A stretch of DNA of 64,000 bases, taken from NCBI RefSeq assembly GCF_036226525.1, contig NZ_CP108487.1:7254001-7318000 (forward strand), in the 5' to 3' direction. Source of the stretch: Kribbella sp. NBC_01245 (GTDB lineage Bacteria; Actinomycetota; Actinomycetes; Propionibacteriales; Kribbellaceae). Every line of letters begins with the position of its first letter. Position 1 is the stretch's first letter. Positions 48,970 to 64,000 of this stretch are shown here, one piece after another. Under the pieces are notes generated by a model that saw only the letters and a list, made by a program, of their open reading frames with translations, made no database searches and was not told the origin of the DNA. The translations under genes were made by a program, and so were the position numbers.

Positions 48970-50628
48970 TTGAGGTCACGAGTGAGGCTCAAGGCCAGCC
49001 GTGCCATCGCCGCGCTGACCGGCCTGCTGTTGGTCGGGTCGCCGGCGGCAGCGGCGGTACCAACGGCCAAAATGTCGTATTACCAGCAGAAAGCGGTCTG
49101 GGCTATTTGCGATCCAGGCGAGCCACCGGAGGGGATGCCGGAAGACGTCTGGAAGATGATCTGGAAAGACCTCGAGTGCGCCGACGTCGTCGTACCGATG
49201 GACTATCGCAATCCCGGCGCCGGCAATCTCACCATCGCCATCAGCCGGTTGAAGGCGAGCGACCCCGCGCGTCGCCAAGGCGTGCTGCTGCTGAATCCGG
49301 GTGGTCCGGGCGGCAACGGCCTGCTGATGCCGAGCTTCTTCCGCAATGACGCCATCGCCAAGCCGTTCGACCTGATCGGGTTCGACCCACGCGGGGTGGG
49401 CCGGTCCACCGAGCTGAGCTGCGAGGAGCCGTCGAGCCCGCCGCTCGTCGAGACCCGGCCGACCGATGACCAGTTCGGCCGGTTCGCGGCGGACGCCCTC
49501 GCCCAGGAACGGGCCTGCGAACAGGCCGGCGGCGGGCTGCGGAAGTTCATCAGCACAGCCAACACCGCCCGCGACATGGACGTCATCCGCGCGGCGATCG
49601 GCGAGAAGAAGATCAACTACCTCGGCTTCTCGTACGGCACCTACCTGGGCGCGGCGTACGGCAGCCTCTTCCCGTCCAAGCTCAACCGCAGCGTGCTCGA
49701 CTCGTCGATGCACCCGGACTGGTTCTACTACGAGGCGAGCAAGCAGCAGGCCGTCGCAGCCCGGGAGAACGTCGACGCGTGGGCCGGGTGGCTCGCGCAA
49801 CGCGACAGCCGGTATCACTTCGGCAAGACCGCTGCCGAGGTACGGGCAACCCTGGACGCCGTACGCGCACGCCTCGCGAAGAAGCCGGTGCCGTGGCCGG
49901 ACGCGCCTCCCGGCTATCCGGACATCGACGGTTCGCTGTTCGACATGATCCTCGGTGGCGCCAGTCCCTCGCGGCCGATGTGGCACGAGTTGGCCCTGCT
50001 GATCGGCGCGGTTCGGGACGCGAGCCAGACCACGAAGAACGCGCTCACGACGTCCGAGGGCAAGGCCTTCCGGGCGCTCTACGGGGTCATCAAGGAGACG
50101 TACAACGGGGTCTTCCCGGCCGTCACCTGCGAGGCCGACTGGCCGAAGGATCTCAAGGTGTACGAGGCGCGGATGCGGATCTTCCGGAAGAAGTACCCGT
50201 ACGGTCCGGGCGCGATGGCGGCGGCTCCGACGAACTGCACATTCCGGTCGTTTACGCCGCCGGAGAAGCTGGTCGACCTCAAGCGTGCGGGTTATCCGAC
50301 CGGCCTGGTGGTGCAGGCGGAGTTCGACCCGGCCACGCAGTACGACGGTGGGCCGGCGATGGCCGCCAAGCTGAACAACAACCTCATCTCGATCAAGGAC
50401 GAGGGCAGTCACGGCATCTACGGCGGCAACGCCTGCGCGACCAAGAAGATCGACGACTACCTGATCAAGGGCATCCTGCCGGGATCGCGAACGGTCTGCC
50501 CCGGCGCTCCGCGTCCGGACGTGCCGGTCGACGGCGCGCGGTCCGGCAGAACGCTGACCGATACCGGGCCGATCGACCAGCGGGTGGCGAAGATCATCAA
50601 GGCCGGCAAACTCGGCCGCTTCCGCTGA
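48970..50628 (+). CDS. Secreted alpha/beta hydrolase, tripeptidyl aminopeptidase-like
   Basis: A 552-residue exported hydrolase of the SlpD/SlpE/TAP group common in actinobacteria. Signal peptide about residues 1-30 (RAIAALTGLLLVGSPAAAA). The oxyanion region is LLLNPGGPGGNG near 110, the nucleophile elbow GFSYGTYLG near 220, and the C-terminal TAP-like domain has the acid in QAEFDPATQY near 455 and the His in DEGSHGIYGG near 480. TTG at 48970 follows CGGAGAG; GTG at 48982 is an alternative start with GAGG upstream. It would release peptides or cleave esters outside the cell. Confidence 0.9.
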   Translation: MRSRVRLKASRAIAALTGLLLVGSPAAAAVPTAKMSYYQQKAVWAICDPGEPPEGMPEDVWKMIWKDLECADVVVPMDYRNPGAGNLTIAISRLKASDPARRQGVLLLNPGGPGGNGLLMPSFFRNDAIAKPFDLIGFDPRGVGRSTELSCEEPSSPPLVETRPTDDQFGRFAADALAQERACEQAGGGLRKFISTANTARDMDVIRAAIGEKKINYLGFSYGTYLGAAYGSLFPSKLNRSVLDSSMHPDWFYYEASKQQAVAARENVDAWAGWLAQRDSRYHFGKTAAEVRATLDAVRARLAKKPVPWPDAPPGYPDIDGSLFDMILGGASPSRPMWHELALLIGAVRDASQTTKNALTTSEGKAFRALYGVIKETYNGVFPAVTCEADWPKDLKVYEARMRIFRKKYPYGPGAMAAAPTNCTFRSFTPPEKLVDLKRAGYPTGLVVQAEFDPATQYDGGPAMAAKLNNNLISIKDEGSHGIYGGNACATKKIDDYLIKGILPGSRTVCPGAPRPDVPVDGARSGRTLTDTGPIDQRVAKIIKAGKLGRFR

Positions 50629-51204
50629 TCAAACAGGAATAGGTCTGCCGAAGAGGGCCTCGCCAACTGCCGCAAGGTGGGGGGCGAGGTCCTCGCTTGT
50701 TGCCTTCTGCAAGGCGGGCGTGCCGACCGCGGTGCGAAGTACGCCGATGCCGAGCAGCCAGGCCGCGAACAACTCGGTCCGCAAGGCCGGGTTGTTGCCC
50801 TGGGCAAGCTCTTGCAACACGTCGAGGTATTGCCCGCAGACCTGGTCGCGAACCCGGTCCCGCATGTCGTCATGCCCGGCCGATCGCAACAGCGCGATCA
50901 GCGGATGCTCCCCGGCGTACTCCTCCCACTCGGAGAAGACCAGTTGTTCGAGCAGCTTGGCCGGCAGCTCCTCGATCGGCCCGGCCGGCAGTTCGGCCGC
51001 GGCCCCGGGTGGGTTCATCGCCTCGGCGAATAGCTTGGACTTGGAGCCGAAATACCGGAAGAGCAGGGCCGGATCCACGCCGGCGTCACCGGCGACCTCT
51101 CGCACGCTGGCGCCGTCGTACCCCTCGCGGGCGAACCGGATCCGCGCGCACTCCAGCAGCCTCGCCCGGGTGGCCTCGCGATCGCGCTTGTGCGTCTCTG
51201 CCAT
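50629..51204 (-). CDS. TetR-family transcriptional regulator
   Basis: A 191-residue TetR protein. The N-terminal HTH is TRARLLECARIRFAREGYDG and [26 protein letters not shown] (about residues 12-58); the C-terminal domain is of the TetR_C_17-like type common in actinobacteria. The stop codon abuts the stop of the convergent peptidase gene. It is divergent from the frameshifted SDR gene. Two copies of an AAGTCATCGATCG palindrome lie between them and are very probably its operators. Confidence 0.92.
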   Translation of the reverse strand: MAETHKRDREATRARLLECARIRFAREGYDGASVREVAGDAGVDPALLFRYFGSKSKLFAEAMNPPGAAAELPAGPIEELPAKLLEQLVFSEWEEYAGEHPLIALLRSAGHDDMRDRVRDQVCGQYLDVLQELAQGNNPALRTELFAAWLLGIGVLRTAVGTPALQKATSEDLAPHLAAVGEALFGRPIPV

Positions 51205-51213
51205 GGCTCCAGC

Positions 51214-51235
51214 TTAAGTCATCGATCGTTGACAT
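51214..51235. promoter_or_regulatory. TetR operator, proximal copy
   Basis: TTAAGTCATCGATCGTTGAC followed by AT, an imperfect palindrome 10 bases before the TetR start; same core as the copy at 51261. Confidence 0.65.
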
Positions 51236-51260
51236 CGCCGCGGACCTGGTCGTACGGTGG

Positions 51261-51284
51261 CTAAGTCATCGATCGATGACTTAG
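51261..51284. promoter_or_regulatory. TetR operator, perfect 24-bp palindrome
   Basis: Perfect palindrome with half-site CTAAGTCATCGA, 15 bases before the SDR start. Together with the 51214 copy (spacing 47 bases) it strongly indicates dual control of both divergent genes by the TetR protein. Confidence 0.8.
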
Positions 51285-51298
51285 TTGAGGGAGAGCGT

Positions 51299-52116
51299 AT
51301 GAAGGACGTAGTGGTCGCCGGGGGAACCACCGGGCTGGGGCGCGCGATCGCGCTGCACTATCTGCGCGAGGGCGCTCGCGTCACCGTGATCGGCAGTACG
51401 CCGGCGCGCGGAGAGCAGTTCGTCAAAGATGGCGAGCAGTTCGTCAAAGACGGGGCGGCGTTCATCCAGGCGGATCTGCTGTCCGTGGCCGAGAACCGCC
51501 GGGTGGTCGAAGAAGTGCGGGCGCGGCACGACTCGCTCGACGCGTTGGTGCTGACCGCGATGACGCCGTTCCTCAAACGGGTCGAAACCGTCGACGGGTT
51601 CGAGGGACGTTCGTGCTCTACTACCTGAGCCGGTATCTGCTCAGCCATGGTCTGACCGACCTGCTGGAACGTGCCGACGAGCCGATCATCGTGAGTCTGG
51701 GCGCGACCGGTTTCACCAAAGGCGGGGTGAATTGGGATGACCCGCAGCTGACGCGGAAGTACAGCCCGATGAAGGCGATCCTGCAGGGCGGCCGGGCGAA
51801 CGATCTGCTCGGTGTGGCGTATCTGCAGGCGCATCCCGACGGCAAGACCCGGTTCATGCTCGACCATCCGGGTTATACGAACAGCGGTACCAACCGGATG
51901 CCGCAGCCGCTGCGGGCCGGGTTGAACTTGCTGGCGAGGTTGTTCGCGAAGACCCCCGAGGAGAACGCGAAGCGCATCATCGCGGTGATGGACGACCAGC
52001 CCGACCGTCGCTTCATCCCATGGGATCGCGACAAGCCGGTCGACCCGACGCTGTCCAGTTTCGACCCGGACAACGCGCGCCGGCTGTCTGCGTTGACCAA
52101 GGACCTGCTCCGCTAA
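51299..52116 (+). pseudogene. SDR-family gene interrupted by a one-base frameshift
   Basis: The first part (51299-51628) encodes MKDVVVAGGTTGLGRAIALH and continues to VETVDGFEG, then runs into a stop. The remainder (LYYLSRYLLSHGLTDLLER onwards, to 52116) continues in the next frame. Restoring one G in the GGGA at about 51606 would join them as EGTFVLYYLS, giving a single protein of about 271 residues. A 21-base tandem duplication (51413-51433 and 51434-51454, encoding EQFVKDG twice) lies upstream. Start ATG 51299 follows GAGGGAGAG. It may be a true pseudogene or a sequencing error; the promoter with its operator looks intact. Confidence 0.8.
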
Positions 52117-52155
52117 AAAGGTGGTGGACGGGCGCGACTCGTGTCAGCCTGCGGT

Positions 52156-52803
52156 ATGGATGTTGTCGCCTCGCTGCCCGCGTTCCTCCTGGCCGTCCTG
52201 CTCATCTCGGCCTCGCCCGGGCCGGCGATGGCCCTGATCTTCCGCCGAGCCGCCTTGCAGGGATTTCGTGCCGCCGTGCCGACCGTGCTGGGGCTGGAGT
52301 TCGGGCTCTATCTCTGGGCGTTGATGGCCGGTGCCGGTCTGGCCGCCCTGGTCGCGGCGTCCCAAACGGCGTACCTCGTGCTCCGGGTCGTTGGTGCCGT
52401 GGTTCTCGTCTACCTCGGCGTTCAGGCTTGGCGTGCGGCTTGGCGGGATAAGGGTTCGGAGGCGGTTGACGTTCCGGCCGAGAGCGCAGAGCAGGTACGG
52501 CGTACTTGGTGGCGGCCGTTCGGCGAAGGGGTGCTGGTGCAACTAGCCAACCCGAAGGCGGCCGTTTTCATGTTCGCGTTCTACCCGCAGTTCGTGCCGG
52601 CGGATCGGCCGTTGCTCTCGACCACGGCCATCCTCGCGGCGCTCCAGGTCGTACTCGAGACGGCCTTCTACCTCACCCTCGCGCTGATCGTCGGCCGTGC
52701 CCGCAACTGGTTCACCCGCCCGGCCATCCGGCGCCGCCTCAACGCGATCAGCGGCACGGTCCTCATCACCCTCGGCCTGCGAGTCGCCGCCACCTCACGC
52801 TGA
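52156..52803 (+). CDS. LysE-family exporter
   Basis: A 215-residue membrane protein with six hydrophobic segments, beginning MDVVASLPAFLLAVLLISAS and showing the LysE/RhtB motif SPGPAMALIFRRAALQGFRAA near residue 20, then WRPFGEGVLVQLANPKAAVFM near 125. ATG at 52156 fits the family; a GTG 15 bases upstream is in frame. Exports amino acids or similar. It follows the frameshifted SDR by 39 bases but is probably separate. Confidence 0.88.
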   Translation: MDVVASLPAFLLAVLLISASPGPAMALIFRRAALQGFRAAVPTVLGLEFGLYLWALMAGAGLAALVAASQTAYLVLRVVGAVVLVYLGVQAWRAAWRDKGSEAVDVPAESAEQVRRTWWRPFGEGVLVQLANPKAAVFMFAFYPQFVPADRPLLSTTAILAALQVVLETAFYLTLALIVGRARNWFTRPAIRRRLNAISGTVLITLGLRVAATSR

Positions 52804-52827
52804 GGCTCGGGAAAAATCTGACCGAAG

Positions 52828-52854
52828 TGTCGATCCAGGGTCCATCCCTTCGAC
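52828..52854 (+). promoter_or_regulatory. Probable ECF42-type sigma promoter before DGPF gene
   Basis: TGTCGA (52828-52833), 17 bases, CGAC (52851-52854). The same two boxes with the same spacing occur at 54801 and 55515, all in front of genes next to the ECF sigma gene. Confidence 0.7.
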
Positions 52855-52894
52855 GCAGTGGTGAAAGCTAGGGCAAAACCGAAGGAGAAGACCC

Positions 52895-53272
52895 ATGCGT
52901 TACATGATCATCAACAAGGCCGACGCCGACTCCGAGGCCGGTGTCCCGCCGACCAAGGAGGTCATCGAGGGCGTTGGTGCGCTGGTCGAAGACCTCGCCA
53001 AGGCGGGTGTGCTGCTGGTCGCCGAGGGCGTGCACAGCAGCGCGCGTGGCGCCCGGGTCAAGGTCGACGGGGGTAAGCGCACGGTCACGGACGGTCCGTT
53101 CGCCGAGACCAAGGAGCTGATCGGCGGCATCATGGTGATCGACGTCCGCAGCAAGGACGAGGCGATCGAGTGGGCAGCACGGCTGGCCGAGGCCCTTGAC
53201 CAGGAGGTCGAGCTGCGACTGGTCGTCGAGGCCGAGGACATCGAGGCCGCCGGCGAGGCCGCGGGCCTGTAA
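52895..53272 (+). CDS. YCII/DGPF-domain protein
   Basis: A 125-residue YCII-related protein that starts MRYMIINKADADSEAG and contains the DGPFAETKELIGGIMVIDV stretch (about residues 68-87) giving the family its DGPF name. These small proteins are genomic partners of ECF42-type sigma factors. ATG after GAAGGAGAAG. A sigma-type promoter TGTCGA-N17-CGAC precedes it. Enzymatic function is not established; the fold is ferredoxin-like with a conserved His/Asp in YCII relatives. Confidence 0.9.
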   Translation: MRYMIINKADADSEAGVPPTKEVIEGVGALVEDLAKAGVLLVAEGVHSSARGARVKVDGGKRTVTDGPFAETKELIGGIMVIDVRSKDEAIEWAARLAEALDQEVELRLVVEAEDIEAAGEAAGL

Positions 53273-53319
53273 AGAGGCTGCCGGTCTAAAGAGGCTGCCG
53301 GTCTAAGGAGCACGCCGGT
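53270..53319. repeat. Short tandem duplication
   Basis: TAAAGAGGCTGCCGGTC occurs twice head to tail (53270-53286, 53287-53303) with a degenerate third copy to 53319. The first copy starts at the stop codon of the DGPF gene. Confidence 0.85.
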
Positions 53320-53386
53320 ATCCGGGCCGGGTCTGGGCAGCCGAATGAGGTTGCCCTGACCCGGCCGGTGCGGTTCTATCGTTCGG

Positions 53387-54643
53387 GTGACGGTTACGGA
53401 TACCCACGGGGCGATCGACGCGGTCTGGCGAATCGAGTCGGCCCGGATCATCGCCGGCGTGGCGCGGCTGGTCCGCGATGTCGGCCTGGCCGAGGAGCTC
53501 GCGCAGGACGCGCTGGTCGCCGCGCTCGAGCAATGGCCCGAGTCGGGGGTGCCGAAGAACCCGGGCGCCTGGCTGATGGCGATCGCGAAACGCCGGGCGA
53601 TCGACCTGATCCGGCGCAAGGAGACGTACCAGCGCAAACTCGCCGAGATGGGCCATGAGCTCGAGATCGACGGCGAGAGTGTCGAGGACGACGTGGAGTC
53701 GATCCTGGCCGACACCATCGAGGACGACCTGCTCCGGCTCGTCTTCACCGCCTGCCACCCGGTGCTGTCGACCGAGGCCCGCGCGGCGCTCACGTTGCGG
53801 CTGATCGGCGGCCTCAAGACCGACGAGATCGCCCGGGCCTTCCTGGTGCCGGAGGCAACGATCTCCCAGCGCATCGTGCGCGCCAAGAAGAACCTGGCCA
53901 AGGCGAACGTTCCCTTCGAGCTGCCGCCCACCGCCGAGCTGAACGAACGCCTCGCCTCCGTGCTCGAGGTCATCTACCTGGTCTTCAACGAGGGCTATTC
54001 CGCCACCGCCGGCGACGACTGGATGCGCCCGGCACTGTGCGACGAGGCGATCCGGCTCGGCCGCATCCTCGCCGGGCTGATGCCCGCCGAGCCGGAGGTG
54101 CACGGCCTGACCGCGCTGATGGAGATCCAGGCCTCCCGTTCGGCCGCGCGAACCGGGCCCGACGGTGAGCCCGTGCTGTTGCTCGAGCAGGACCGCTCCC
54201 GCTGGGACCGCCTGCTCATCCGCCGAGGTCTGGCCGCCCTAGACACCGCCTGGGGCCTGGAGGGAACGCCCGGCCCGTACCTCCTGCAAGCCGCGATCGC
54301 CGCCTGCCACGCCCGCGCCACCACCGCCGAGGACACCGACTGGGCCCGCATCGCAGGCCTGTACGGCGTACTCGCGCAAGTCTCGCCGTCGCCGGTGATC
54401 GAGCTGAACCGGGCCGTCGCGGTCTCGATGGCCTTCAGCCCGGCCCACGGTCTGGAAGTCGTCGACGGTCTGCTGGACGAGCCATCCCTCAAGGACTACC
54501 ACCTACTGCCGAGCGTGCGCGGCGACTTCCTCTTCAAACTCGGCCGCCTCGACGAAGCCCGCGCCGAATTCGAACGAGCCGCCTCCCTCACCCGCAACGA
54601 ACGCGAACGCACCCTCCTCCTATCCCGCGCCGCCGCCTGCTGA
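53387..54643 (+). CDS. ECF-type sigma factor with TPR-like C-terminal extension (ECF42 group)
   Basis: A 418-residue sigma factor. Region 2 spans about residues 10-85 (ESARIIAGVARLVRDVGLAEELAQDALVAAL), region 4 about 125-180 (LTLRLIGGLKTDEIARAFLVPEATISQRIVRAKKNL), and a 230-residue C-terminal extension follows (DUF6596-like, including FNEGYSATAGD, a helical TPR-like part and the LYLLLPSVRG-like DYHLLPSVRGDFLFKLGR). This layout and a DGPF neighbour define ECF42. No anti-sigma gene is next to it, so the extension likely controls activity. GTG start; TTCTATCGT just upstream suggests a leaderless message. It is not itself preceded by the TGTCGA motif. Confidence 0.93.
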   Translation: MTVTDTHGAIDAVWRIESARIIAGVARLVRDVGLAEELAQDALVAALEQWPESGVPKNPGAWLMAIAKRRAIDLIRRKETYQRKLAEMGHELEIDGESVEDDVESILADTIEDDLLRLVFTACHPVLSTEARAALTLRLIGGLKTDEIARAFLVPEATISQRIVRAKKNLAKANVPFELPPTAELNERLASVLEVIYLVFNEGYSATAGDDWMRPALCDEAIRLGRILAGLMPAEPEVHGLTALMEIQASRSAARTGPDGEPVLLLEQDRSRWDRLLIRRGLAALDTAWGLEGTPGPYLLQAAIAACHARATTAEDTDWARIAGLYGVLAQVSPSPVIELNRAVAVSMAFSPAHGLEVVDGLLDEPSLKDYHLLPSVRGDFLFKLGRLDEARAEFERAASLTRNERERTLLLSRAAAC

Positions 54644-54748
54644 AGATTTTTCCGTTCATTCGTCGCAATCCGCCCTCTGCCGTCGGCTGCCCTGTGCTGG
54701 TCCGCTGAGCTGAGCGGGCGGATTGCGACGAATGAACGGAAAAATCTT
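54643..54748. repeat. Family A hairpin repeat, copy 5 (variant)
   Basis: Arms 54643-54675 and 54716-54748 are perfect 33-base reverse complements. The core reads CATTCGTCGCAATCCGCCC instead of CATTCGTCGGAATCCGCCC, and the other arm carries the matching change. The left arm begins on the last base of the sigma gene stop codon. The T run in the left arm and A run in the right make this copy the most terminator-like. Confidence 0.9.
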
Positions 54749-54800
54749 GGCGGTGTTGGGGCCTTGTGACCACGCCGGGTGAAGGAAGTTCACCCGAACC

Positions 54801-54827
54801 TGTCGAGGAATCCGCCTCAGCTCCGAC
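54801..54827 (+). promoter_or_regulatory. Probable ECF42-type sigma promoter before reductase gene
   Basis: TGTCGA (54801-54806), 17 bases, CGAC (54824-54827); 36 bases before the start of the DHFR-like gene. Confidence 0.7.
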
Positions 54828-54863
54828 GTACCCGCGAAACCACCGAGACCTAGGAGGAATGAG

Positions 54864-55463
54864 ATGGGCAAGGTCACCACCGGCGCCACGATGTCCCTGG
54901 ACGGCTTCATCGCCGGACCGGAGGAAAGTGGCTTCGACCTGCTGTTCCAGTGGTACGGCAACGGCGACGTGGAGATCCCGTCCGCCAGCCCGGACGTACC
55001 GGCGATCCGCCTCTCGGCGGCGAGCGCCGGGCTGATCAAGCCGGAGTGGGAGAACACCGGTGCGCTGCTGGTCGGCCGGTATCTCTACGACATGACGAAG
55101 GCCTGGGGCGGCCGGCACCCGATGGACGTCACCACAGTCGTGCTCACCCACCAGCGCCCCGAGGACCGTCCGGAGGACGACGACAACTTCGTCTTCGTCA
55201 CCGACGGCATCGAGGCCGCGGTGGCCAAGGCGAAGGAAATCGCCGGGGACAAGAACGTCGGCGTCAACGGCGGGCAGATGGCCCAGCAGTGTCTGGAAGC
55301 CGGGCTGCTCGACGAGGTCGGCGTGGAGCTGGTGCCGGTCCTGCTGGGAAGCGGGAAGCCCTTGTTCGCGGAACTCGGCGCTGTGCCGGTGCAGTTCGAG
55401 GGCCCGATCGCGGTCGTCGAGGGCACTGGTGTCACCCACCTGCGCTACCGCGTCAAGAAGTAG
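54864..55463 (+). CDS. Dihydrofolate reductase-family protein (RibD C-terminal domain)
   Basis: A 199-residue protein of the RibD_C/DHFR-like family, starting GKVTTGATMSLDGFIAGPE (typical TxSLDGxIA) and including GALLVGRYLYDM, VTTVVLTHQ, KNVGVNGGQMAQQCLEAGLLDEVGVELVPVLLGSGKPLF (NADPH and C-terminal motifs). It probably is an NADPH-dependent reductase of an unknown compound, not a folate enzyme. AGGAGGAATGAG precedes the ATG. A TGTCGA-N17-CGAC motif lies 36 bases upstream, placing it in the proposed sigma regulon. Confidence 0.9.
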   Translation: MGKVTTGATMSLDGFIAGPEESGFDLLFQWYGNGDVEIPSASPDVPAIRLSAASAGLIKPEWENTGALLVGRYLYDMTKAWGGRHPMDVTTVVLTHQRPEDRPEDDDNFVFVTDGIEAAVAKAKEIAGDKNVGVNGGQMAQQCLEAGLLDEVGVELVPVLLGSGKPLFAELGAVPVQFEGPIAVVEGTGVTHLRYRVKK

Positions 55464-55514
55464 CCCTAGCGCCGGGTCTCTCTAGCAGTCGGATTCCTTC
55501 TCACGGCCTAGAGG

Positions 55515-55541
55515 TGTCGAAAACCGGGTGCGGTGTTCGAC
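55515..55541 (+). promoter_or_regulatory. Probable ECF42-type sigma promoter before hydrolase genes
   Basis: TGTCGA (55515-55520), 17 bases, CGAC (55538-55541), followed by GCAG as at 52851; 48 bases before the hydrolase start. Confidence 0.7.
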
Positions 55542-55589
55542 GCAGGGGTGAGAGACGGGGTGAGCCCGTCGGGAGCAGGAGGAATACCG

Positions 55590-56378
55590 ATGATCAAGGT
55601 CAGGTCGAAGGACGGCACCAAGATCGCCGTGGACCGCTTGGGGGATGGGCCTGCCGTGATCCTGGTCGGCGGGGGATCGGTCGACCGGTCGGACAACGCG
55701 CCACTCGCGGCGCTACTCGCTGAGTACTTCACCGTCTACAACTACGACCGCCGCGGCCGGGGTGATAGCGACCTCAGCCCGGCCGGTACGCCGTACTCGC
55801 CGGAGCTGGAGTTCCAGGACCTGGAAGCGGTCTTCGCGGCCGCGGGCGGTTCCGCCGACCTGTACGGCATCTCGAGTGGTGCGGCCCTCGCGCTTCTCGC
55901 CGCCGCGGCGGGCTGCCCGGCCAAGAAGGTCGCGCTGTACGAGCCGCCGTACATCCTGGAGGAAAGCAGCAAACCCCGCCCGTCCAAGGACAACGCCTCG
56001 GTTTACCGGGAGCTGGTCGCCGCGGGGAAACGTGATGAGGCCTTCATCCGGTTTGTGGTGCATGGTGTCGGCCTGCCGGCGGAGTTGGTCGAGACCTGGC
56101 GGACCGAGCCGTGGTGGCCGAAGCAGTTGCAGCTTGCGCACACCCTCGAGTACGACGCGACGATCATGGGCGAGAGCCGGTTGCCGGTCGACGAGGTCCG
56201 CGACTACACCACGCCGACCCTGGTGATGAGTGGCGACTCCGGCTGGGAGTGGATCGAGGCGGCCGCGCCCGCGCTCGCCGGCATCCTCAAGAACGGCACG
56301 CATGAGGTCTTGAATGGGCAGACGCACGAGGTCGACCCGGCCGTGCTGGTGCCGAAGCTGCGCGCGTTCTTCGCATGA
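55590..56378 (+). CDS. Alpha/beta hydrolase
   Basis: A 262-residue alpha/beta-hydrolase-fold protein beginning MIKVRSKDGTKIAVDRLGDG. It has VYNYDRRGRGDSD near 50 and a nucleophile elbow YGISSGAAL near 95 (Ser in GxSSG). The C-terminal His is in NGQTHEVDP near 248 and the acid in MSGDSGWEW. RBS CAGGAGGAATACC. It is followed by a paralog at 56413 with the same start and motifs, so the pair arose by tandem duplication. A TGTCGA-N17-CGAC promoter precedes it. Confidence 0.9.
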   Translation: MIKVRSKDGTKIAVDRLGDGPAVILVGGGSVDRSDNAPLAALLAEYFTVYNYDRRGRGDSDLSPAGTPYSPELEFQDLEAVFAAAGGSADLYGISSGAALALLAAAAGCPAKKVALYEPPYILEESSKPRPSKDNASVYRELVAAGKRDEAFIRFVVHGVGLPAELVETWRTEPWWPKQLQLAHTLEYDATIMGESRLPVDEVRDYTTPTLVMSGDSGWEWIEAAAPALAGILKNGTHEVLNGQTHEVDPAVLVPKLRAFFA

Positions 56379-56412
56379 CCGGGCCTGACTTTTCACACGA
56401 AGGGGTACTCCG

Positions 56413-57198
56413 ATGAACACCACGACATCCGCCGACGGCACCACCATCGCGTACGACCGCATCGGCTCGGGCCCGGCGCTAGTCCTTGTCGACGGCGCGT
56501 TGTGCAGCCGTGCGCAAGGCCCGTTGCCCGAGGTGGCGGGGCAGTTGCAGGACGCCTTCACCGTCTACACGTACGACCGACGCGGCCGGGGCGACAGCGG
56601 TGACACCGAGCCGTATTCGCCCGAGCGGGAGATCGAGGACCTCGCGGCCGTTGTCGCCGAGGCGGGCGGTTCGGCGTACGCCTATGGCACGTCGTCTGGC
56701 GCCGCGCTGCTGCTTCGCGCTACCGCGGCGGGTGTGCCGATCACCCGGCTGGTCGCGTTCGAACCGCCCTTCGTGGTGGACGACAGCCGCAAGCCGATCC
56801 CGGCCGACTGGGTCGACCAACTGGCGGCGCGCGAGCCGGGTCAAGCGGTCAAGTACTTCATGACCAAGGGCATCGGCCTGCCCGGGTTCGTCGTGACGAT
56901 GATGCGGCTGATGCCGGCCTGGAAGGGCATGACGGCCGTTGCGCACACCCTGCCGTACGACGCGAAGGTTGTCGGCGGCAACTGCTTCGGCAAACCGCTC
57001 GACGCCTCGCAATGGGAGTCGATCAAGGCCCCGGCGCTGATCGTCAACGGCGGCAAGAGCCCCGCCTGGATGCGAACCAGCGTCGCCGCCCTGGCCCAAG
57101 CCGTCCCGAACGCCCGCCACGAAGTAGTCGCCGGCCAGAACCACATGATCAAGGCCACCGCCATCGCCCCGGTGATCCGCGCCTTCCTGACCACCTGA
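56413..57198 (+). CDS. Alpha/beta hydrolase, paralog of the preceding gene
   Basis: A 261-residue alpha/beta hydrolase closely related to the 55590 gene: TSADGTTIAYDRIGSGPALVL, VYTYDRRGRGDSG, elbow YGTSSGAALLL near 98 and late His in AGQNHMIKAT near 240. It starts 35 bases after its paralog with GAAGGGG before the ATG, so it is probably read from the same sigma promoter. The copies have diverged beyond simple gene conversion. Substrates unknown; such hydrolases often accompany ECF42-type loci, where the pattern suggests a stress or detoxification function. Confidence 0.9.
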   Translation: MNTTTSADGTTIAYDRIGSGPALVLVDGALCSRAQGPLPEVAGQLQDAFTVYTYDRRGRGDSGDTEPYSPEREIEDLAAVVAEAGGSAYAYGTSSGAALLLRATAAGVPITRLVAFEPPFVVDDSRKPIPADWVDQLAAREPGQAVKYFMTKGIGLPGFVVTMMRLMPAWKGMTAVAHTLPYDAKVVGGNCFGKPLDASQWESIKAPALIVNGGKSPAWMRTSVAALAQAVPNARHEVVAGQNHMIKATAIAPVIRAFLTT

Positions 57199-57199
57199 G

Positions 57200-57259
57200 C
57201 GGCGTGTCACAAGGGACCGATGATGGGCGACACGCCGCGTCAGAAGGGCCCGATGACGG
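57200..57259. repeat. Family B repeat, about 1.7 units, reverse orientation
   Basis: CGGCGTGTCACAAGGGACCG and CGACACGCCGCGTCAGAAGG mark two partial 33-base units in the orientation opposite to the 13848 copy. Starts directly after the hydrolase stop; no inverted partner. Confidence 0.8.
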
Positions 57260-57264
57260 TGTTG

Positions 57265-57636
57265 TTACTGCTGCGGGAGCATTTGCTGGAGGGCCCAGCC
57301 GTTGCCGTCGGGGTCGCTGAAGAAGACGAAGCGGCCCCACGGGAACTCCTGGACCTCGCTGACCTCGACGCCACGCTCCAGTAGTTCCTTGCGGGCGGCG
57401 TCGGCGTCGTCGATCACGACCTGCAGGCCTTGTGCGGTGCCGGGCTCCTGCGTGCTGAGGCCCGTACCGATCGCGATCGAACAGGCCGAGCCGCGCGGCG
57501 TCAGCTGCACGAACCGGACCTCGTCGCTGATCCGGTGATCGTGGTCCTCGACGAACCCGACCTGCTCGGTATAAAACGCCTTGGCCCGATCCACATCCGT
57601 CACCGGCACAGCGACCAACTCGAGCTTCCAGTCCAT
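57265..57636 (-). CDS. VOC-superfamily (glyoxalase-like) protein
   Basis: A 123-residue vicinal-oxygen-chelate protein: MDWKLELVAVPVTDVDRAKA with PVTDVDRAKAFYTEQVGF as the classic N-terminal beta-alpha, then a C-terminal half ending VFFSDPDGNGWALQQM, which carries the DPDGN motif of this fold. The metal-site His of true glyoxalases is not conserved, so it may be a binding or resistance-type member. ATG at 57636 after GGAGGGG; the TTG three bases upstream is less likely. Confidence 0.88.
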   Translation of the reverse strand: MDWKLELVAVPVTDVDRAKAFYTEQVGFVEDHDHRISDEVRFVQLTPRGSACSIAIGTGLSTQEPGTAQGLQVVIDDADAARKELLERGVEVSEVQEFPWGRFVFFSDPDGNGWALQQMLPQQ

Positions 57637-57684
57637 CAAAACCCCTCCTTCGCCGAAATCTTTGGCCGTTCGAACAGTAAGGCT

Positions 57685-60648
57685 TCAGCGGTCCAATCGG
57701 GCAGTGATGCGATTGAGGTCGAAGCGTTCGCCCGCTGGCAGGGGAGTGCCGACGGAGGCGCGGAGGGTGGCGGCTTTGGTCAGGAGGCGGCGGGCTTCGG
57801 TGGGGTTGGCGGTCAGGGCCTCGACGCCGGCCAGGCCTTCGCAGGCGAGGGCGATCGCTCGCGGGTCGCCGACGGCTTCCGCGGTCGCGAGGCCTTCCTC
57901 ATGGAGGGCGCGGGCCTGTACGGCGTCACCTCGTTGCTCGGCGGCGAAACCGAGTTCCGCCAGGATCAGCGCCACACCGGGCCCGCCGCCGTACTCGCGA
58001 CACCAGTCGAGCCACGCCCGGAGGTGGAGCTCCGCCTGCTCGAGCTCACCGCGGCGCCGGGCGGTCATACCCAGACCCACCTCGGCGAACTGCACTCCGC
58101 GTTGATGCGACTGCGACCGGGCGAGCTCCATTCCGCGCCGGTGGTACTCGTCCGCGGCAGTGAAATCCCCGGCCAGCAGGGCCAATCGCCCGAGGCCGGA
58201 GAGCTTGTACGACGCTTCCGTCCACAGGCCGAGGTCTTGCGCGTAGCAGAGGCCTTCCTCGTGCAAGCGGGTTGCCTCGGCGTACTCACCAGAAACCTCG
58301 GCAAGGAACGCCAGAACATCCGTGGCACGCAGACGCCCCCAGCGATCGCCGAGGTCGCGGAAGGTGGTCGCACTGCGCACAGCGAGTTCGCGCGCTCTCG
58401 CCAGGTCACCGGCCGCCAGAGCGCTGGACGCCTGCAAGGACTCGACCGTGGCCGTACCCCAACGGTCATTGGTCCCCCGAGCCCTCCACCGCTCGCTCGG
58501 GCCCGGAGTTCCGAAGCCCACTTGGGCAGAGGCCAGCACGAGGGTTACGACACCTGGATCGCGCGCAGCGTCGTACAGGTCGTCTAGCTCGGCTTCAACC
58601 GGATCTACGCCATCACGAACCAGCAAGGTGAAGGCGGCTCGCCACAGTCCTGCAAGTGCCAGGGCGTCCGCAGGACCGGGCATGGCCAGTACACGATCTA
58701 GTGACCGCCGCGCCTCGCCCAACCGGCCTCGGACGAACCAGTACCACCCAAGGGCTGTGGTCAGTTCCAACGCCACGGAGGCGTCTCCGGCGTCAATGGC
58801 AGAGTCGAGCGCGGTACGGAGGTTCGCGGTCTCCGTGTCGAGTCGGGACAACCAGAGCTGCTGGTCATGCCCTCTGAGGTTGGAGTCGGCCTCAACCGCC
58901 AGCGCCAGGTAGTACTGCCGGTGGAGGCTCTCGACGGCTAGACGTTCCTGAAGTCGTTCAAGGCAGTACGCCGTCACAGACTCGAGTAGTCGGTAGCGGG
59001 TGCCGTCAGGTGTTGGGACGGCTACGACCAGCGAGCGATCTACCAGTCGTGACACGAGGTCCAGTACGTCGCCGGGCTTGATGCCGTCTCCCGCGCAGAC
59101 AACCTCCGCGGCGGCCAACGTGCAGCCTTCGGCGTGTACGGCGAGCCGGCGCAGGACTATCCGCTCGGACTCTGTCAGGAGGTCCCAACTCCAGTCGATC
59201 ATCGCCCGCAAGGTCTGTTGCCTAGCGGGCGCTCCACGCCTCCCGGCGACCAGTAGGCCGAACCGGTCGTCCAAACGCTCGGCAAGTTCGCGTACGCCGA
59301 GTGCGCGCACACGGGTGGCCGCGAGTTCGAGAGCGAGTGGGATGCCGTCAAGCCGCTGGCAGATGGCTGCAACGGCTGCAGGGTCGTCCGGCACGAAACT
59401 CGGTACGGCGGCACTAGCGCGAGCGGTGAACAGTTCAACGGCCGACGCCAGTTCAAGCGGTGGCACGGGCCAGAGGCGTTCACCGTCGACCGCCAACGAC
59501 TCCTGGCTTGTCGCGAGGATGCGCAGCCCGGGCGCTCTCGCGAGCAGTACGCGGGCCAGTTCCGCTACCGGTTCGATCAAGTGCTCACAGTTGTCCAAGA
59601 CCAGCAGAAGCCGTTTGTCCTGCAGCCCTTGGGCCAACCGATCCTGCAGCGGTTCCTCGGCGGAATCCCGCACGGACAATACGGCCGCGACGGCCTCGGC
59701 GGGGGACGTTGTACCGGCAAGCTCGACCAGCCAAACCCCATCCGGATAGACGGCCTGGCGAGCGGCCTCAAGCGCCAACCGGGTCTTACCCACACCACCC
59801 GAGCCTGTGAGCGTCACAAGTCGGCTTGCGGCGAGCAAGCCCTTCACAGTCGCTACAGCCTCACCACGGCCGATCAACTCGGTAAGCGGCTCCGGCAGGT
59901 TGTTCCGCCCCAGAGCCGTGCTGCCAGGCACAGTCGCCTCTTGCCGCAGTACAGCCTGGTAGACCGCAGAGAGCTCAGGGCTCGGATCAACCCCCAGCTC
60001 GTCCGCCAACCGCCGCCGCAACGCGTCGTACCGCTCAAGCGCCTCTGCCTGCCTCCCGGCTCCATAGAGGGCCCGAAGATGTACGGCGTGCAGTCGTTCC
60101 CGCAGCGGGTGGAGCGTCACCAGCTCGCCTAACTCGCTCACGAGCTCTCGGTGCTGCCCAAGTTCGAGACGTGCCTCGGCCAGGTCCTCCAGCGCGACGA
60201 GCCGTTCCTCTTCCAGCCGGGCCCGTACCGCCTCAGCAAAGTCGTACCCGTCATAGGCGGTTCCCCGCCACAGCGCGAGCGCCTCGGTCAACAGCGCCGG
60301 GTCCCGGTTCAACCTGGCCTTGGCGACTAGTGCCCGGAACTCCTCGCTATCGACGGCCGTAGCGGCCAGCGCGTATCCCGCCGGGCTAGAGACGACCAGT
60401 GCTTTGCCGCCCGGCTCGATCTCCTCCAGGGCTTTCCGCAACTGCCAGACCCGGGTCTGCAAGGTACTCCCCGGATTGGCCGGCAGACTGCCGCTCCAGA
60501 GATCATCGATCAACCTGTCCGCCGGAACGGGCCTTCCGCCGTACGAGAGCAGGTCGGCCAACAGCGCCCGGACCTTCTTCTCGCGGATCGTGCCCGGCTT
60601 ACCGTCTGAGGACCAGACCTGCAGCGGACCAAGCACCCCGAAACGCAC
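57685..60648 (-). CDS. SARP-family regulator with NB-ARC and TPR domains (AfsR-like)
   Basis: A 987-residue AfsR-type activator. The N-terminal OmpR-like winged helix (VRFGVLGPLQVW, KKVRALLADLLSYGGRPV) and BTAD domain cover about residues 1-245. The NB-ARC/AP-ATPase part starts with Walker A LTGSGGVGKTRLALEAAR near 280 and ends near 560; about 620-987 are tetratricopeptide repeats (ARSLDRVLAMPG, LHEEGLCYAQDLG, LHEEGLATAEAVGDP). GTG at 60648 gives the family start; longer frames would run over the MFS gene. The MFS gene is immediately upstream on the same strand. It probably activates a nearby efflux or natural-product function. Confidence 0.9.
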   Translation of the reverse strand: MRFGVLGPLQVWSSDGKPGTIREKKVRALLADLLSYGGRPVPADRLIDDLWSGSLPANPGSTLQTRVWQLRKALEEIEPGGKALVVSSPAGYALAATAVDSEEFRALVAKARLNRDPALLTEALALWRGTAYDGYDFAEAVRARLEEERLVALEDLAEARLELGQHRELVSELGELVTLHPLRERLHAVHLRALYGAGRQAEALERYDALRRRLADELGVDPSPELSAVYQAVLRQEATVPGSTALGRNNLPEPLTELIGRGEAVATVKGLLAASRLVTLTGSGGVGKTRLALEAARQAVYPDGVWLVELAGTTSPAEAVAAVLSVRDSAEEPLQDRLAQGLQDKRLLLVLDNCEHLIEPVAELARVLLARAPGLRILATSQESLAVDGERLWPVPPLELASAVELFTARASAAVPSFVPDDPAAVAAICQRLDGIPLALELAATRVRALGVRELAERLDDRFGLLVAGRRGAPARQQTLRAMIDWSWDLLTESERIVLRRLAVHAEGCTLAAAEVVCAGDGIKPGDVLDLVSRLVDRSLVVAVPTPDGTRYRLLESVTAYCLERLQERLAVESLHRQYYLALAVEADSNLRGHDQQLWLSRLDTETANLRTALDSAIDAGDASVALELTTALGWYWFVRGRLGEARRSLDRVLAMPGPADALALAGLWRAAFTLLVRDGVDPVEAELDDLYDAARDPGVVTLVLASAQVGFGTPGPSERWRARGTNDRWGTATVESLQASSALAAGDLARARELAVRSATTFRDLGDRWGRLRATDVLAFLAEVSGEYAEATRLHEEGLCYAQDLGLWTEASYKLSGLGRLALLAGDFTAADEYHRRGMELARSQSHQRGVQFAEVGLGMTARRRGELEQAELHLRAWLDWCREYGGGPGVALILAELGFAAEQRGDAVQARALHEEGLATAEAVGDPRAIALACEGLAGVEALTANPTEARRLLTKAATLRASVGTPLPAGERFDLNRITARLDR

Positions 60649-60658
60649 ACCGTCAACC

Positions 60659-61912
60659 CTACCCAGGAGCCAACACAGGCTCGCTGGCCCGGTTGTCGGA
60701 GGCAGCACGCTCGCGGCGCGCCAGCAGGATGAACGGCAGGACCAGGAGCTGGATACCTGCACCGATGACGTAGGAAGGGCCGTAGCTCCAGACGTCGGCA
60801 GACCGGCCGAGGACCGGCTGGATGACCACGCCACCAGTGGAGCCGAGCAGGCTGTCCGACGACAGTACTGTCGCCCGCTGTGCCGACGGGATCAGTCCAT
60901 TCAGGTAGGCCTGCCTGATCGGCATAGCGGCTGCGAACATCACTGACCACACCGCCAGTAGCGCGAACACCACCCAGAAGTTCTGCACCAGACCCATCAG
61001 CGCCAGCACTACCGCGGTGACGCCGGCAGTGATGAGGAGCGCCGACGTACGCCGCCGGAACGCCCTGGCCACCAGCGACACCGAGGCGCCGCCAGCGATC
61101 TGCGCTCCGGCGACCAGCCCGGCCGTCAGCCCGGCGATCGCGTAGGAATCTGCGCTGCCGTACAGCTCGAGCAGGTACGGCTGGGCCGCGTAGAAGCCGT
61201 ACACGCTGACGCCCGAGGCGAAGGGTGCGGCGAGCATCAACCAACGCACTGGCGGGTTGAGCAGACCGTGCTCCAGCGATGCGCGCAGAATGCCGGCCAT
61301 CTCCGACCTGACCGAGACACGCGGTTTCGGTGCGAAGCCGACGTCGTACATCGACCGCCAGGCCACCAAGAAGGTGAGTCCGAGCAGCACCGCCCGGACG
61401 AGGTACGGCACGCCGAGGTTGGTCGCCTGGGCCAGCAGGCCGCCGCCGATCGTGCCGCCCATCATCGCGATACCGCTCGCCATCTGCCCCTTACCGAAGG
61501 CCGTGTCCAGCGAGCCGTCGTACCCGCTGGCGGTCAGGCCGTCCACCAGCCACGCCTCGGTGGCGCCGCTGAAGAACGTGAACCCCAGTCCGAGCAGGGC
61601 CGACGCCGCCGCCCAGGCCGCGAACGGCGCACTGGTGTGCCACAGCAGCAGATAGAGCAGCGTGGATCCGAACAAGGTGGCCGCGCCGAGCAGGTACGAC
61701 GTACGCCGGCCGACCGTATCGGCGACCACACCTGTCGGGACCTCGAACAGCACCATGCCCGCGGTGAAGAACGCGTTCGCGGCAAACGCCTCGCCGATAC
61801 TCAGGCCGGCGTCGAGCAGGAACAGCGTGTTGATGCCCCAGATCATCGACGAAGCACTTGTCGACACGACGACAAGCGTTAGGTAGGTCCGCAGAAGCTG
61901 ATCCGAAGCCAT
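60659..61912 (-). CDS. MFS transporter
   Basis: A 417-residue major facilitator with 12 predicted helices. GVVADTVGRRTSYLLG (about 62-77) is signature A; FEVPTGVVADTVG and GATEAWLVDGL are typical of a multidrug/unknown-function MFS subgroup. ATG at 61912 after GAGGTG. It ends 10 bases before the SARP gene start and is divergent from the imine-reductase-like gene. An efflux role under SARP control is likely; the substrate is unknown. Confidence 0.88.
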   Translation of the reverse strand: MASDQLLRTYLTLVVVSTSASSMIWGINTLFLLDAGLSIGEAFAANAFFTAGMVLFEVPTGVVADTVGRRTSYLLGAATLFGSTLLYLLLWHTSAPFAAWAAASALLGLGFTFFSGATEAWLVDGLTASGYDGSLDTAFGKGQMASGIAMMGGTIGGGLLAQATNLGVPYLVRAVLLGLTFLVAWRSMYDVGFAPKPRVSVRSEMAGILRASLEHGLLNPPVRWLMLAAPFASGVSVYGFYAAQPYLLELYGSADSYAIAGLTAGLVAGAQIAGGASVSLVARAFRRRTSALLITAGVTAVVLALMGLVQNFWVVFALLAVWSVMFAAAMPIRQAYLNGLIPSAQRATVLSSDSLLGSTGGVVIQPVLGRSADVWSYGPSYVIGAGIQLLVLPFILLARRERAASDNRASEPVLAPG

Positions 61913-61976
61913 CAGGCACCTCTTCCGTCGTTGCTGTCACCTGCTACGTCGGAGCGGTCTAAAGCCCATCGACATT

Positions 61977-61997
61977 GGAGCTAGAGAAAACCTAGAG
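61977..61997. promoter_or_regulatory. SARP-like direct repeat in divergent promoter
   Basis: CTAGAG occurs at 61981 and again at 61992, an 11-base spacing that is the classic arrangement of SARP-binding heptamers. It lies between the MFS gene (61912) and the imine-reductase-like gene (62045). Confidence 0.5.
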
Positions 61998-62044
61998 CGG
62001 TCGATCGCAGGGTTAGGGCCTGACAAGAACAGGAAGGACCTTCT

Positions 62045-62863
62045 GTGAGTAAGACCGATGTGACGGTATTGGGGCTTGGTTCGATGGGGCACGCGCTTGC
62101 TGCCGCGTTCCTGGCCAACGGACACCGGGTGACCGTGTGGAACCGCACCCCCGGCAAGGGCGACGACCTGGTCGCCCAAGGGGCCATCCGCGCGCAAGGC
62201 CCGAAGGAAGCAGTACAGGCGTCGCCGGTGGTTGTTGCCTGCGTACTGGACTACCCGACGCTGCACGGCGTGCTGGATGGTTCCTGGGACGCCCTGGCCG
62301 GGCGGACGCTGATCAACCTCACGAACGGGACGCCCGCACAGGCGCGGGAGACGGCCAAGCTGCATGACGGGGAGTACGTCGACGGCGGCATCATGGCCGT
62401 TCCGCCGATGATCGGTGGGCCGAGCGCGTTTGTGCTCTACAGCGGTTCGCGGGCCGCGTTCGAGCGGTACGAGGACATCCTCGGCGAGCTCGGCGCCACA
62501 CACTTTCTGGGCGAGGACGCGGGCATGGCAGCGCTGATCGACCTGGCGCTGCTGAGCGGGATGTACGGCATGTTCGGCGGCGTCGCGCACTCGGTCGCGC
62601 TGGCCGCGTCGGGCGGTCTCGACCCGGCCGAGTTCACCACCTCGCTGCTCGCGCCCTGGCTGGTCGCGATGACCGGGGTGCTCAATTCGATCACCGATGA
62701 CTCGCCTGCCGACATGCAGGTCATCGCGTTCGGGAACATCGTTGCTGCCAGCAACGACCAGGGCGTTGATCCGGAGTTGCTGAGCCACCTGACCACACCA
62801 TTTCGCCAGATGATCGGCCCGGACGCGGCCGGTCTCACCCTCGAGGAGATGTTGAACCGATGA
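62045..62863 (+). CDS. NAD(P)-binding imine-reductase-like oxidoreductase
   Basis: A 272-residue 6-phosphogluconate-dehydrogenase-type protein. The N-terminal Rossmann motif [22 protein letters not shown] and the VWNRTPGKG segment that follows match imine reductases and beta-hydroxyacid dehydrogenases. [14 protein letters not shown] and [13 protein letters not shown] follow the IRED pattern. The catalytic Lys of beta-hydroxyacid dehydrogenases is not seen, as in IREDs where Asp or Tyr takes that place; here [15 protein letters not shown] fills the region. GTG start after ACAGGAAGGA. It overlaps the next SDR gene (ATGA). Confidence 0.85.
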
Positions 62864-63609
62864 CCCGAAAAGCTGTAGTCACAGGCGGTACGCACGGGAT
62901 CGGGCTCGCCACCGTCAAGGCGTTGCTCGACGGCGGTGCCGAGGTGCTGCTGACCGGACGCGACGAGCGCAACCTGGAGAAGGCGCGCGGCGAGCTGACC
63001 GGGCGGTCCGCCCACGTGCTGCGGTCCGACGCGGCCAGCCTCGCCGATATCGATGCCCTCGGCAACGAGGTGGGCCAGCGGCTGGGGCAGATCGACCTGC
63101 TCTTCGTGAACGTCGGCATCTCGATGCTGGAGCCGTTCGACCAGGTCACCGAGGCGTCGTACGACCGGAGTTTCGCGGTCAACACCAAGGGCGCGTTCTT
63201 CACCGCCCAGCGCCTCGCGCCGCTGGTCCGCGACGGTGGTGCGATCGTCTTCACCTCGTCGATCGCGGACGAGGGCGGCGAGTCCACGATGACGGTGTAC
63301 GGCGGTACCAAGGCGGCGCTGGTGTCGATGGCCAAGGGCATGGCGGGCGCGCTGCTGGCTCGCGATATCCGGGTCAACGTGGTCAGCCCAGGGTTCATCG
63401 ACACCCCGACGATGGGCGCCGCCGATCTGTCCGAGGCCGACCGGCAGGCCTTCCGCGTGATCGGGGATGAGATGACGCCGATGAAGCGGCACGGTACGGC
63501 GGAGGAGGTGGCGGCCGCGGTCCTCTACCTGGCCTTCGACGCCACCTACACCACCGGATCCCGCCTAGTCGTCGACGGCGGCCTCGGCACCGGCATCACA
63601 CGCGCCTGA
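62860..63609 (+). CDS. SDR-family oxidoreductase
   Basis: A 249-residue classical SDR with [20 protein letters not shown] (residues 7-26), [11 protein letters not shown] in place of [14 protein letters not shown] with the catalytic Ser, [16 protein letters not shown] as YxxxK, and a C-terminal [14 protein letters not shown]. It overlaps the imine-reductase-like gene by four bases (ATGA), so the two form an operon and may act in sequence on one metabolite. Confidence 0.9.
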
Positions 63610-63629
63610 GGAAGGTTTAAGGTCGAGGG

Positions 63630-64000
63630 ATGGCGCGGGAGTTGGTGGTGCTGGGGACGGGGAGTCAGGTGCCGTCGCGGAGCCGCGGCCAGAACGGGTA
63701 TTTCCTGCGCTGGGATGACGAGGGTTTCCTCTTCGACCCGGGCGAAGGTACCCAACGGCAGATGCTCTTCGCGGGTGTCGCCGTCGGCGCGATCACGCGA
63801 ATCTGCATCACCCATTTCCACGGCGACCACTGCCTGGGATTGCCAGGCGTCGTCCAACGGCTCTCCCTCGACCGTGTCCCGCACACCGTGCAAGCGCACT
63901 ACCCAGCGTCCGGCCGGGAGTACTTCGCCAGATTGCGCCACGCCAGCTCCTTCTACGAAGTGGCCAAGGTCGCGGAGGAGCCGGCGTACGACGACGGCCC
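63630..64000 (+). CDS. rnz: Ribonuclease Z (tRNase Z), N-terminal part
   Basis: The gene starts at ATG 63630 and leaves the window at the right edge; about 123 residues are present. It reads [20 protein letters not shown], then [13 protein letters not shown] and the metallo-beta-lactamase metal motif [16 protein letters not shown], all hallmarks of tRNase Z, which removes the 3' trailer from tRNA precursors. Start is 20 bases after the SDR stop. Related arylsulfatase-type MBL proteins are less likely given the GEGTQRQ and HCLGLPG strings. Confidence 0.9.

Follow-up and report, generated by a model that had tools for sequence, protein, structure and literature searches.

Putative promoters of an ECF42 sigma factor in Kribbella: conservation across the genus, dispersed candidate targets and a possible -35 code among paralogues

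Sigma factors of the extracytoplasmic function (ECF) group ECF42 are widespread, but little has been established about the signals to which they respond, the genes that they control or what the YCII protein does. Here we describe one such factor, encoded at position 53387 of a 64,000-nucleotide stretch (the window) of the 8.68-Mb single-contig genome of Kribbella sp. NBC_01245 (contig NZ_CP108487.1, positions 7,254,001 to 7,318,000), together with a promoter-like element, TGTCGA-N17-CGAC, that precedes nearby genes for a YCII (DGPF) protein, a RibD_C (dihydrofolate-reductase-like) protein and two alpha/beta hydrolases (Table 1). These sites agree with the ECF42 promoter, TGTCGA and CG[A/T]C, that Liu, Pinto and Mascher reportedly described in 2018. 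Judging from the sequence comparisons presented below, the 53387 sigma probably reads TGTCGA-N17-T-CGAC promoters of the YCII gene and the hydrolase unit, plus a number of scattered genes with the same type of flanks (A), while genes behind a second type of flanks (B) more likely belong to another ECF42 factor.

The closest described systems are the ECF42 factors of Streptomyces venezuelae (Sven_0747, Sven_4377 and Sven_7131), which, according to PMC8999054, combine sigma2 and sigma4 domains with a TPR-like C-terminal extension and have a YCII/DGPF neighbour, as does the Kribbella factor. In contrast to S. venezuelae, a hydrolase unit is conserved alongside the sigma gene in the genus Kribbella, and a single genome carries 16 ECF42-like genes whose promoters are specific to their groups. 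Another ECF42 factor, RpoE10 of Sinorhizobium meliloti (PMC6180224), resembles the 53387 sigma in having a YCII gene upstream, an N17 spacer, a small set of dispersed targets with glyoxalase-like genes and apparently no autoregulation; its promoters are of the form TGTCGG-N17-CGTC, as opposed to TGTCGA-N17-CGAC here. Cellulolytic clostridia likewise have many paralogues of a single family, the SigI factors, whose promoters are separate but related and which show little crosstalk (PMC6056542); these represent an unrelated sigma family with other promoter elements.

The 53387 sigma matches PF04542, PF08281 and TIGR02937, all above cut-off, and continues into a C-terminal extension of about 240 residues that is recognized as DUF6596 (E=6.5e-38) and, only below cut-off, as TPR_2. 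Its structure model is helical nearly throughout (mean predicted local distance difference test score, pLDDT, 86.9), and the top-ranked Foldseek matches of this model are mostly TPR proteins, only one of them with E<=0.001 and with low TM-scores. No anti-sigma gene was found among the eight neighbouring proteins scanned, all of which belong to other families. With its TPR-like C-terminal part, its YCII neighbour and no anti-sigma gene among these eight, the 53387 sigma is an ordinary ECF42 factor of the kind described in PMC8999054 and PMC6180224. This agrees with a preliminary description of the stretch, which had placed an ECF42-type sigma factor beside a DGPF gene.

The window contains five exact matches to the motif with the N17 spacer, whereas spacers of any other length between 8 and 29 give 0-2 each. 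With spacers of 15 to 19 bases allowed, there are eight matches versus 2.16 expected, a number that was reached in none of 100 shuffles. Three of the exact sites lie 36-48 bases before genes, as the preliminary description had reported; its wording, three identical-spacing promoters, is correct for the core and the spacer but not for the flanks. A fourth, promoter-like site upstream of an MFS permease gene was overlooked there, and the fifth match is taken as chance. The open reading frame (ORF) list places the start of the first hydrolase at GTG 55533, but AGGAGG precedes the ATG at 55590. No exact site faces the sigma gene in the window, nor in any of the 35 orthologous loci, which bears out the earlier remark that the sigma gene lacks the motif and speaks against autoregulation through an exact site.

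Table 1. Coordinates of the genes, motif sites and other features in the window
Feature	Position	Strand	Remarks
TGTCGA-N17-CGAC, putative ECF42-type promoter of YCII/DGPF gene	52828-52854	+	exact match; tail GCAGTGGTGAAAG; gap to ATG 52895, 40 bases
YCII/DGPF protein, 125 aa	52895-53272	+	PF03795, E=2.4e-19
ECF42 sigma factor, 418 aa	53387-54643	+	sigma2, sigma4, C-terminal DUF6596 and TPR-like helices
Sigma codons 155-173	53849-53905	+	start of PEATISQR and sigma4 recognition helix, including Q161
Copy of dispersed long palindrome	54643-54748		36-nt arms, 97% complementary; overlaps last base of sigma stop codon
TGTCGA-N17-CGAC before RibD_C gene	54801-54827	+	exact; class-B flanks (GCTC-CGAC-GTACC); gap to ATG 54864, 36 bases
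RibD_C/dihydrofolate-reductase-like protein, 199 aa	54864-55463	+	PF01872, E=7.2e-09
TGTCGA-N17-CGAC, putative promoter of hydrolase unit	55515-55541	+	exact; tail GCAGGGGTGAGAG; gap to ATG 55590, 48 bases
Alpha/beta hydrolase 1, 262 aa	55590-56378	+	PF12697, E=5.4e-12
Alpha/beta hydrolase 2, 261 aa	56413-57198	+	41% identical to hydrolase 1
MFS permease, 417 aa, downstream of fourth site	60659-61912	-	MFS_1, PF07690, E=1.3e-19
Fourth TGTCGA-N17-CGAC site, promoter-like	61974-61948	-	35 bases before ATG of MFS permease; class-B flanks by eye
Fifth TGTCGA-N17-CGAC match	3928-3902	-	inside opposite-strand ORF with weak TetR_N match just under cut-off

An orthologue of the sigma factor is encoded in all 37 other genomes of the genus that were searched (80-84% identity), and the surroundings of the locus were obtained from 35 of them. 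The exact motif is found before the YCII gene in all 34 orthologous loci in which this gene lies inside the stretch examined; the gene is often inverted or located several kb away, yet the motif is retained. At the hydrolase site the exact motif is present in 20 of the 35 loci and an equivalent element in all 35; the 15 non-exact sites have one hexamer base changed (10 loci), a spacer of 16 (four) or both (one). Spacer sequences diverge among the orthologous loci while the motif ends and CGAC stay, and the 35 loci together contain 56 matches at N17, whereas each of the other lengths between 10 and 25 gives 0-13. This conservation supports the earlier proposal of sigma-type sites before the YCII and hydrolase genes. 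The RibD_C reductase is missing from this locus in all 35 other genomes (E<=0.01) and was rejected as a conserved locus member. As a separate observation, the hydrolase sites keep GCA right after CGAC (55542-55544 and equivalents) in 35 of 35 loci, unlike the first base of the -35 hexamer, which varies in 10 of them.

Matching sites are scattered over the genome. A pattern of the motif, a ribosome site and ATG, which misses some sites, e.g. the one at 61974, occurs 12 times in the Kribbella sp. NBC_01245 genome versus once for the reversed pattern, and 485 versus 12 times over 38 genomes. The 12 matches represent 11 distinct sites: three in the window and, elsewhere, two that precede YCII genes, three that precede RibD_C genes and one upstream of a gene for a DUF998 membrane protein; two of the 11 were judged to lie inside other genes. 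The idea of a compact regulon, put forward in the preliminary description, is therefore rejected, while the enrichment upstream of genes for which it had proposed a genome scan is seen in the same figures. To classify the candidate targets, we examined the proteins encoded behind 67 sites (11 from this genome and the remaining 56 from four further ones, with chance sites not removed). The most common families were YCII (14), RibD_C (12), FAD_binding_4 (7), Abhydrolase_1 (6) and Glyoxalase (6), followed by MFS, DUF998 and DUF4287 with three each. This set suggests functions in small-molecule redox reactions, hydrolysis and export; a role in detoxification would be a guess.

The sites in the window fall into two types according to their flanks. 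In the 53387 group all 53 listed sites have T immediately before CGAC, whereas the reductase site at 54801 has C in this position and GTACC as its tail, which resembles the YCII promoters associated with another ECF42 factor of the genome, 5478k (tail GTACCGGGTGA). For the 53387 and 5478k groups, weight matrices were built from 52 distinct sites and 25 sites, respectively, with this genome left out; they sorted all training sites correctly in leave-one-out. The log-likelihood ratios (LLR) of the flanks, 53387 versus 5478k group, are +35.4 for the YCII site, +38.1 for the hydrolase site and -15.8 for the reductase site, figures that overstate the certainty because the sites used for training are mutually orthologous. 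The preliminary description had included the reductase in the regulon; it shares the core motif, but the B-type flanks and its absence from the locus in the rest of the genus weakly contradict that assignment. We think it more likely that a different ECF42 factor, of the 5478k type, reads the reductase and permease sites, or that both factors do. No sigma gene was found beside the dispersed class-B YCII sites within flanks of 1.5-2.5 kb (62 loci examined in all); sigma matches were present in 11 of the 62 loci, none of them a class-B YCII locus.

The genome encodes 16 ECF42-like genes (17 matches, two of which, in 2972k, are pieces of one gene), including the 1531k paralogue, which has an internal stop. 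The exact motif was not found before the YCII genes of any of the other 15 ECF42 loci; related elements were called at 10 of these loci and five gave none. We compared the YCII promoters of five groups across the genus, taking for each the best-scoring loci of a search; every group has a conserved variant. The elements are TGTCCG/CGAC in 29 of 30 loci of the 1578k group, TGTCGA/CGTC in 30 of 30 of the 8364k group, TGTCCC/CGAC in all four of the 7474k group and TGTCGA/CGAC with a spacer of 17 or 18 in 25 of 26 of the 5478k group; the 2041k group has TGTC[CT]G/CGTC in 20 of 30, other hexamers in two and no called element in eight. Among the 11 paralogues of this genome with a called promoter, bases 5-6 of the -35 hexamer are GA in five of five with Q or A at the position equivalent to residue 161 and in none of six with K or R (Fisher p=0.0022), a split that is reduced to 4/4 versus 0/6 if 1531k, with its internal stop, is left out. 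Three of the 418 alignment columns (79, 161 and 315) separate the two sets. Residue 161 lies in the sigma4 recognition helix and, in our own alignment, corresponds to SigW T171, a residue that touches the -35 element in the crystal structure described in PMC6713349.

The correspondence between residue 161 and -35 bases 5-6 is a strong lead, not proof, because the promoter elements were first picked by eye, five paralogues have no element and the paralogues are not independent. It remains a tentative proposal, to which we give slightly less than an even chance, that the ECF42 factors of this genus, some 16 per genome (as counted in one), are kept apart by a readable promoter code in which residue 161 (Q/A, R or K) would set -35 bases 5-6 and group-specific -10 and start-region sequences would separate the factors that share them. 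Such a code would produce numerous one-component switches operating in parallel, and a separate YCII protein and scattered enzymes would belong to each. A literature search returned no account of ECF42 promoter codes among paralogues, which carries little weight as the main papers on ECF42 and on ECF specificity lay outside it.

Beyond the genus, we considered a wide set, the best 80 loci from a scan of bacterial genomes in which at least 416 had a relative; their titles include Actinomycetota, Pseudomonadota, Bacillota and Acidobacteriota, and one of the 80 comes from Kribbella. A YCII gene is in reach in 72 of them, preceded by TGTCGA-N17/18-CG[A/T] in 55 and by another hexamer in one. A hydrolase is encoded within 4 kb in four of the 80: the Kribbella locus, two from Paenibacillus and one acidobacterial. 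In both Paenibacillus loci TGTCGA-N17-CGTC precedes the gene for a hydrolase 50% identical to hydrolase 2. Partnership with a hydrolase is thus a feature of the genus that has few parallels elsewhere. A RibD_C reductase is found in one of the 80 loci, without the motif. We also observed that the two wide relatives that have H or R in place of Q161, L429 and L438, are both among those without the TGTCGA element before YCII.

Several observations weigh against the assignment of the A-flank promoters to the 53387 sigma. No element was detected before YCII in 16 of the 72 wide loci, the N17 peak is weaker in the wide set (70 versus up to 38 for another spacer), and, outside the genus, a hydrolase lies within 4 kb in 3 of 79 loci, the acidobacterial one without the motif. 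In S. meliloti the YCII gene SMc01151 was not raised by RpoE10 overexpression despite a like motif (PMC6180224), which means that adjacency and the motif do not make every YCII gene a target; this result and the rarity of the hydrolase outside the genus slightly lower our confidence in the assignment. Taken by itself the core says little, because the loose N15-19 motif is common (516 in the genome versus 123 for the reversed control). Nor is the exact core confined to the surroundings of one sigma gene, since TGTCGA-N17-CGAC is also found just behind the 1578k sigma gene (L051:5197-5983), 52 bases before an ORF of 236 codons. Since the 53387 and 5478k groups have the same core elements, crosstalk between them may occur, and the A/B flanks may not be decisive. 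The hexamer at the 5478k locus of this very genome is GGTCGA. Genome G004, which is outside the 35 loci, has A instead of T before CGAC at a site with a YCII-type tail. A comparison of genomes with and without the 5478k sigma, meant to show which factor reads class-B sites, gave a mixed picture: G004, with a 5478k orthologue, has no B-like site among four, and G020, without a close 5478k orthologue by identity, has one B-like site of six by eye.

The B-like site of G020, along with the common core and spacer and the presence of YCII, RibD_C and hydrolase genes behind both types of flanks, would fit a model in which the flanks set promoter strength only and the 53387 sigma reads every TGTCGA-N17-CGAC site, the reductase and permease sites among them. 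We regard this as possible but unlikely in view of the resemblance of the B flanks to the 5478k-group promoters, the C in place of the otherwise uniform T and the negative LLR of the reductase site. Still less probable is free crosstalk among the 16 factors, with the cognate sites forming one broad ECF42 stimulon: the family motifs are indeed alike (TGTCNN-N17-CG[A/T]N) and several groups share TGTCGA, but the group-specific elements are conserved across the genus and -35 bases 5-6 track the recognition helix. A chance origin of the sites in a genome rich in GC, as the frequency of the loose pattern and the two distinct sites inside other genes might suggest, is very improbable. In 35 loci the sites are retained upstream of the same genes despite changes in gene order, which, together with the shuffles and reversed controls, argues against chance, and the genus-wide footprint already contradicts it.

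Under the preferred reading, assignment of the A-flank promoters to the 53387 sigma, the activity of this factor would be set via its TPR-like C-terminal extension, by analogy with published ECF42 work. The active sigma would direct RNA polymerase to TGTCGA-N17-T-CGAC promoters and so bring about transcription of the YCII gene next to it and of the hydrolase unit. The same factor probably serves scattered A-flank genes, such as those for RibD_C reductases, the DUF998 membrane protein and, in other species, transporters. Given their B-type flanks, the genes for the reductase (54864) and the permease (60659) would more likely respond to another ECF42 factor (5478k type), or to both. The sigma gene itself lacks a promoter of this kind.

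Two repeats were noted next to the sigma gene. The long palindrome at its 3' end has 39 other copies, 83-90% identical, among 40 scored of 220 candidates, and a crude gene call places seven of 20 copies between genes that converge. In an alignment of 20 copies, both partners have changed in seven of 29 stem pairs, and pairing is kept in 99.3% of cells; none of 500 shuffles reaches either value. An Rfam search of 50000-64000 found nothing at gathering score. The palindrome is perhaps a repetitive extragenic palindrome (REP)-like or mobile family kept for its structure, and it is not part of the regulon. A 17-base tandem duplication (two copies, 53270-53303) starts at the YCII stop codon, between the YCII and sigma genes.

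We consider the finding real and the ECF42 type a known one; what is worth keeping is the genus-wide footprint, the list of dispersed candidate targets and, among the paralogues, the possible promoter code. With its many ECF42 groups and their conserved cognate promoters, such a genus represents a natural matrix for the residues of promoter choice, and the candidate targets, namely YCII proteins, RibD_C proteins, FAD oxidoreductases, hydrolases, glyoxalases and transporters, make the function of these factors testable.

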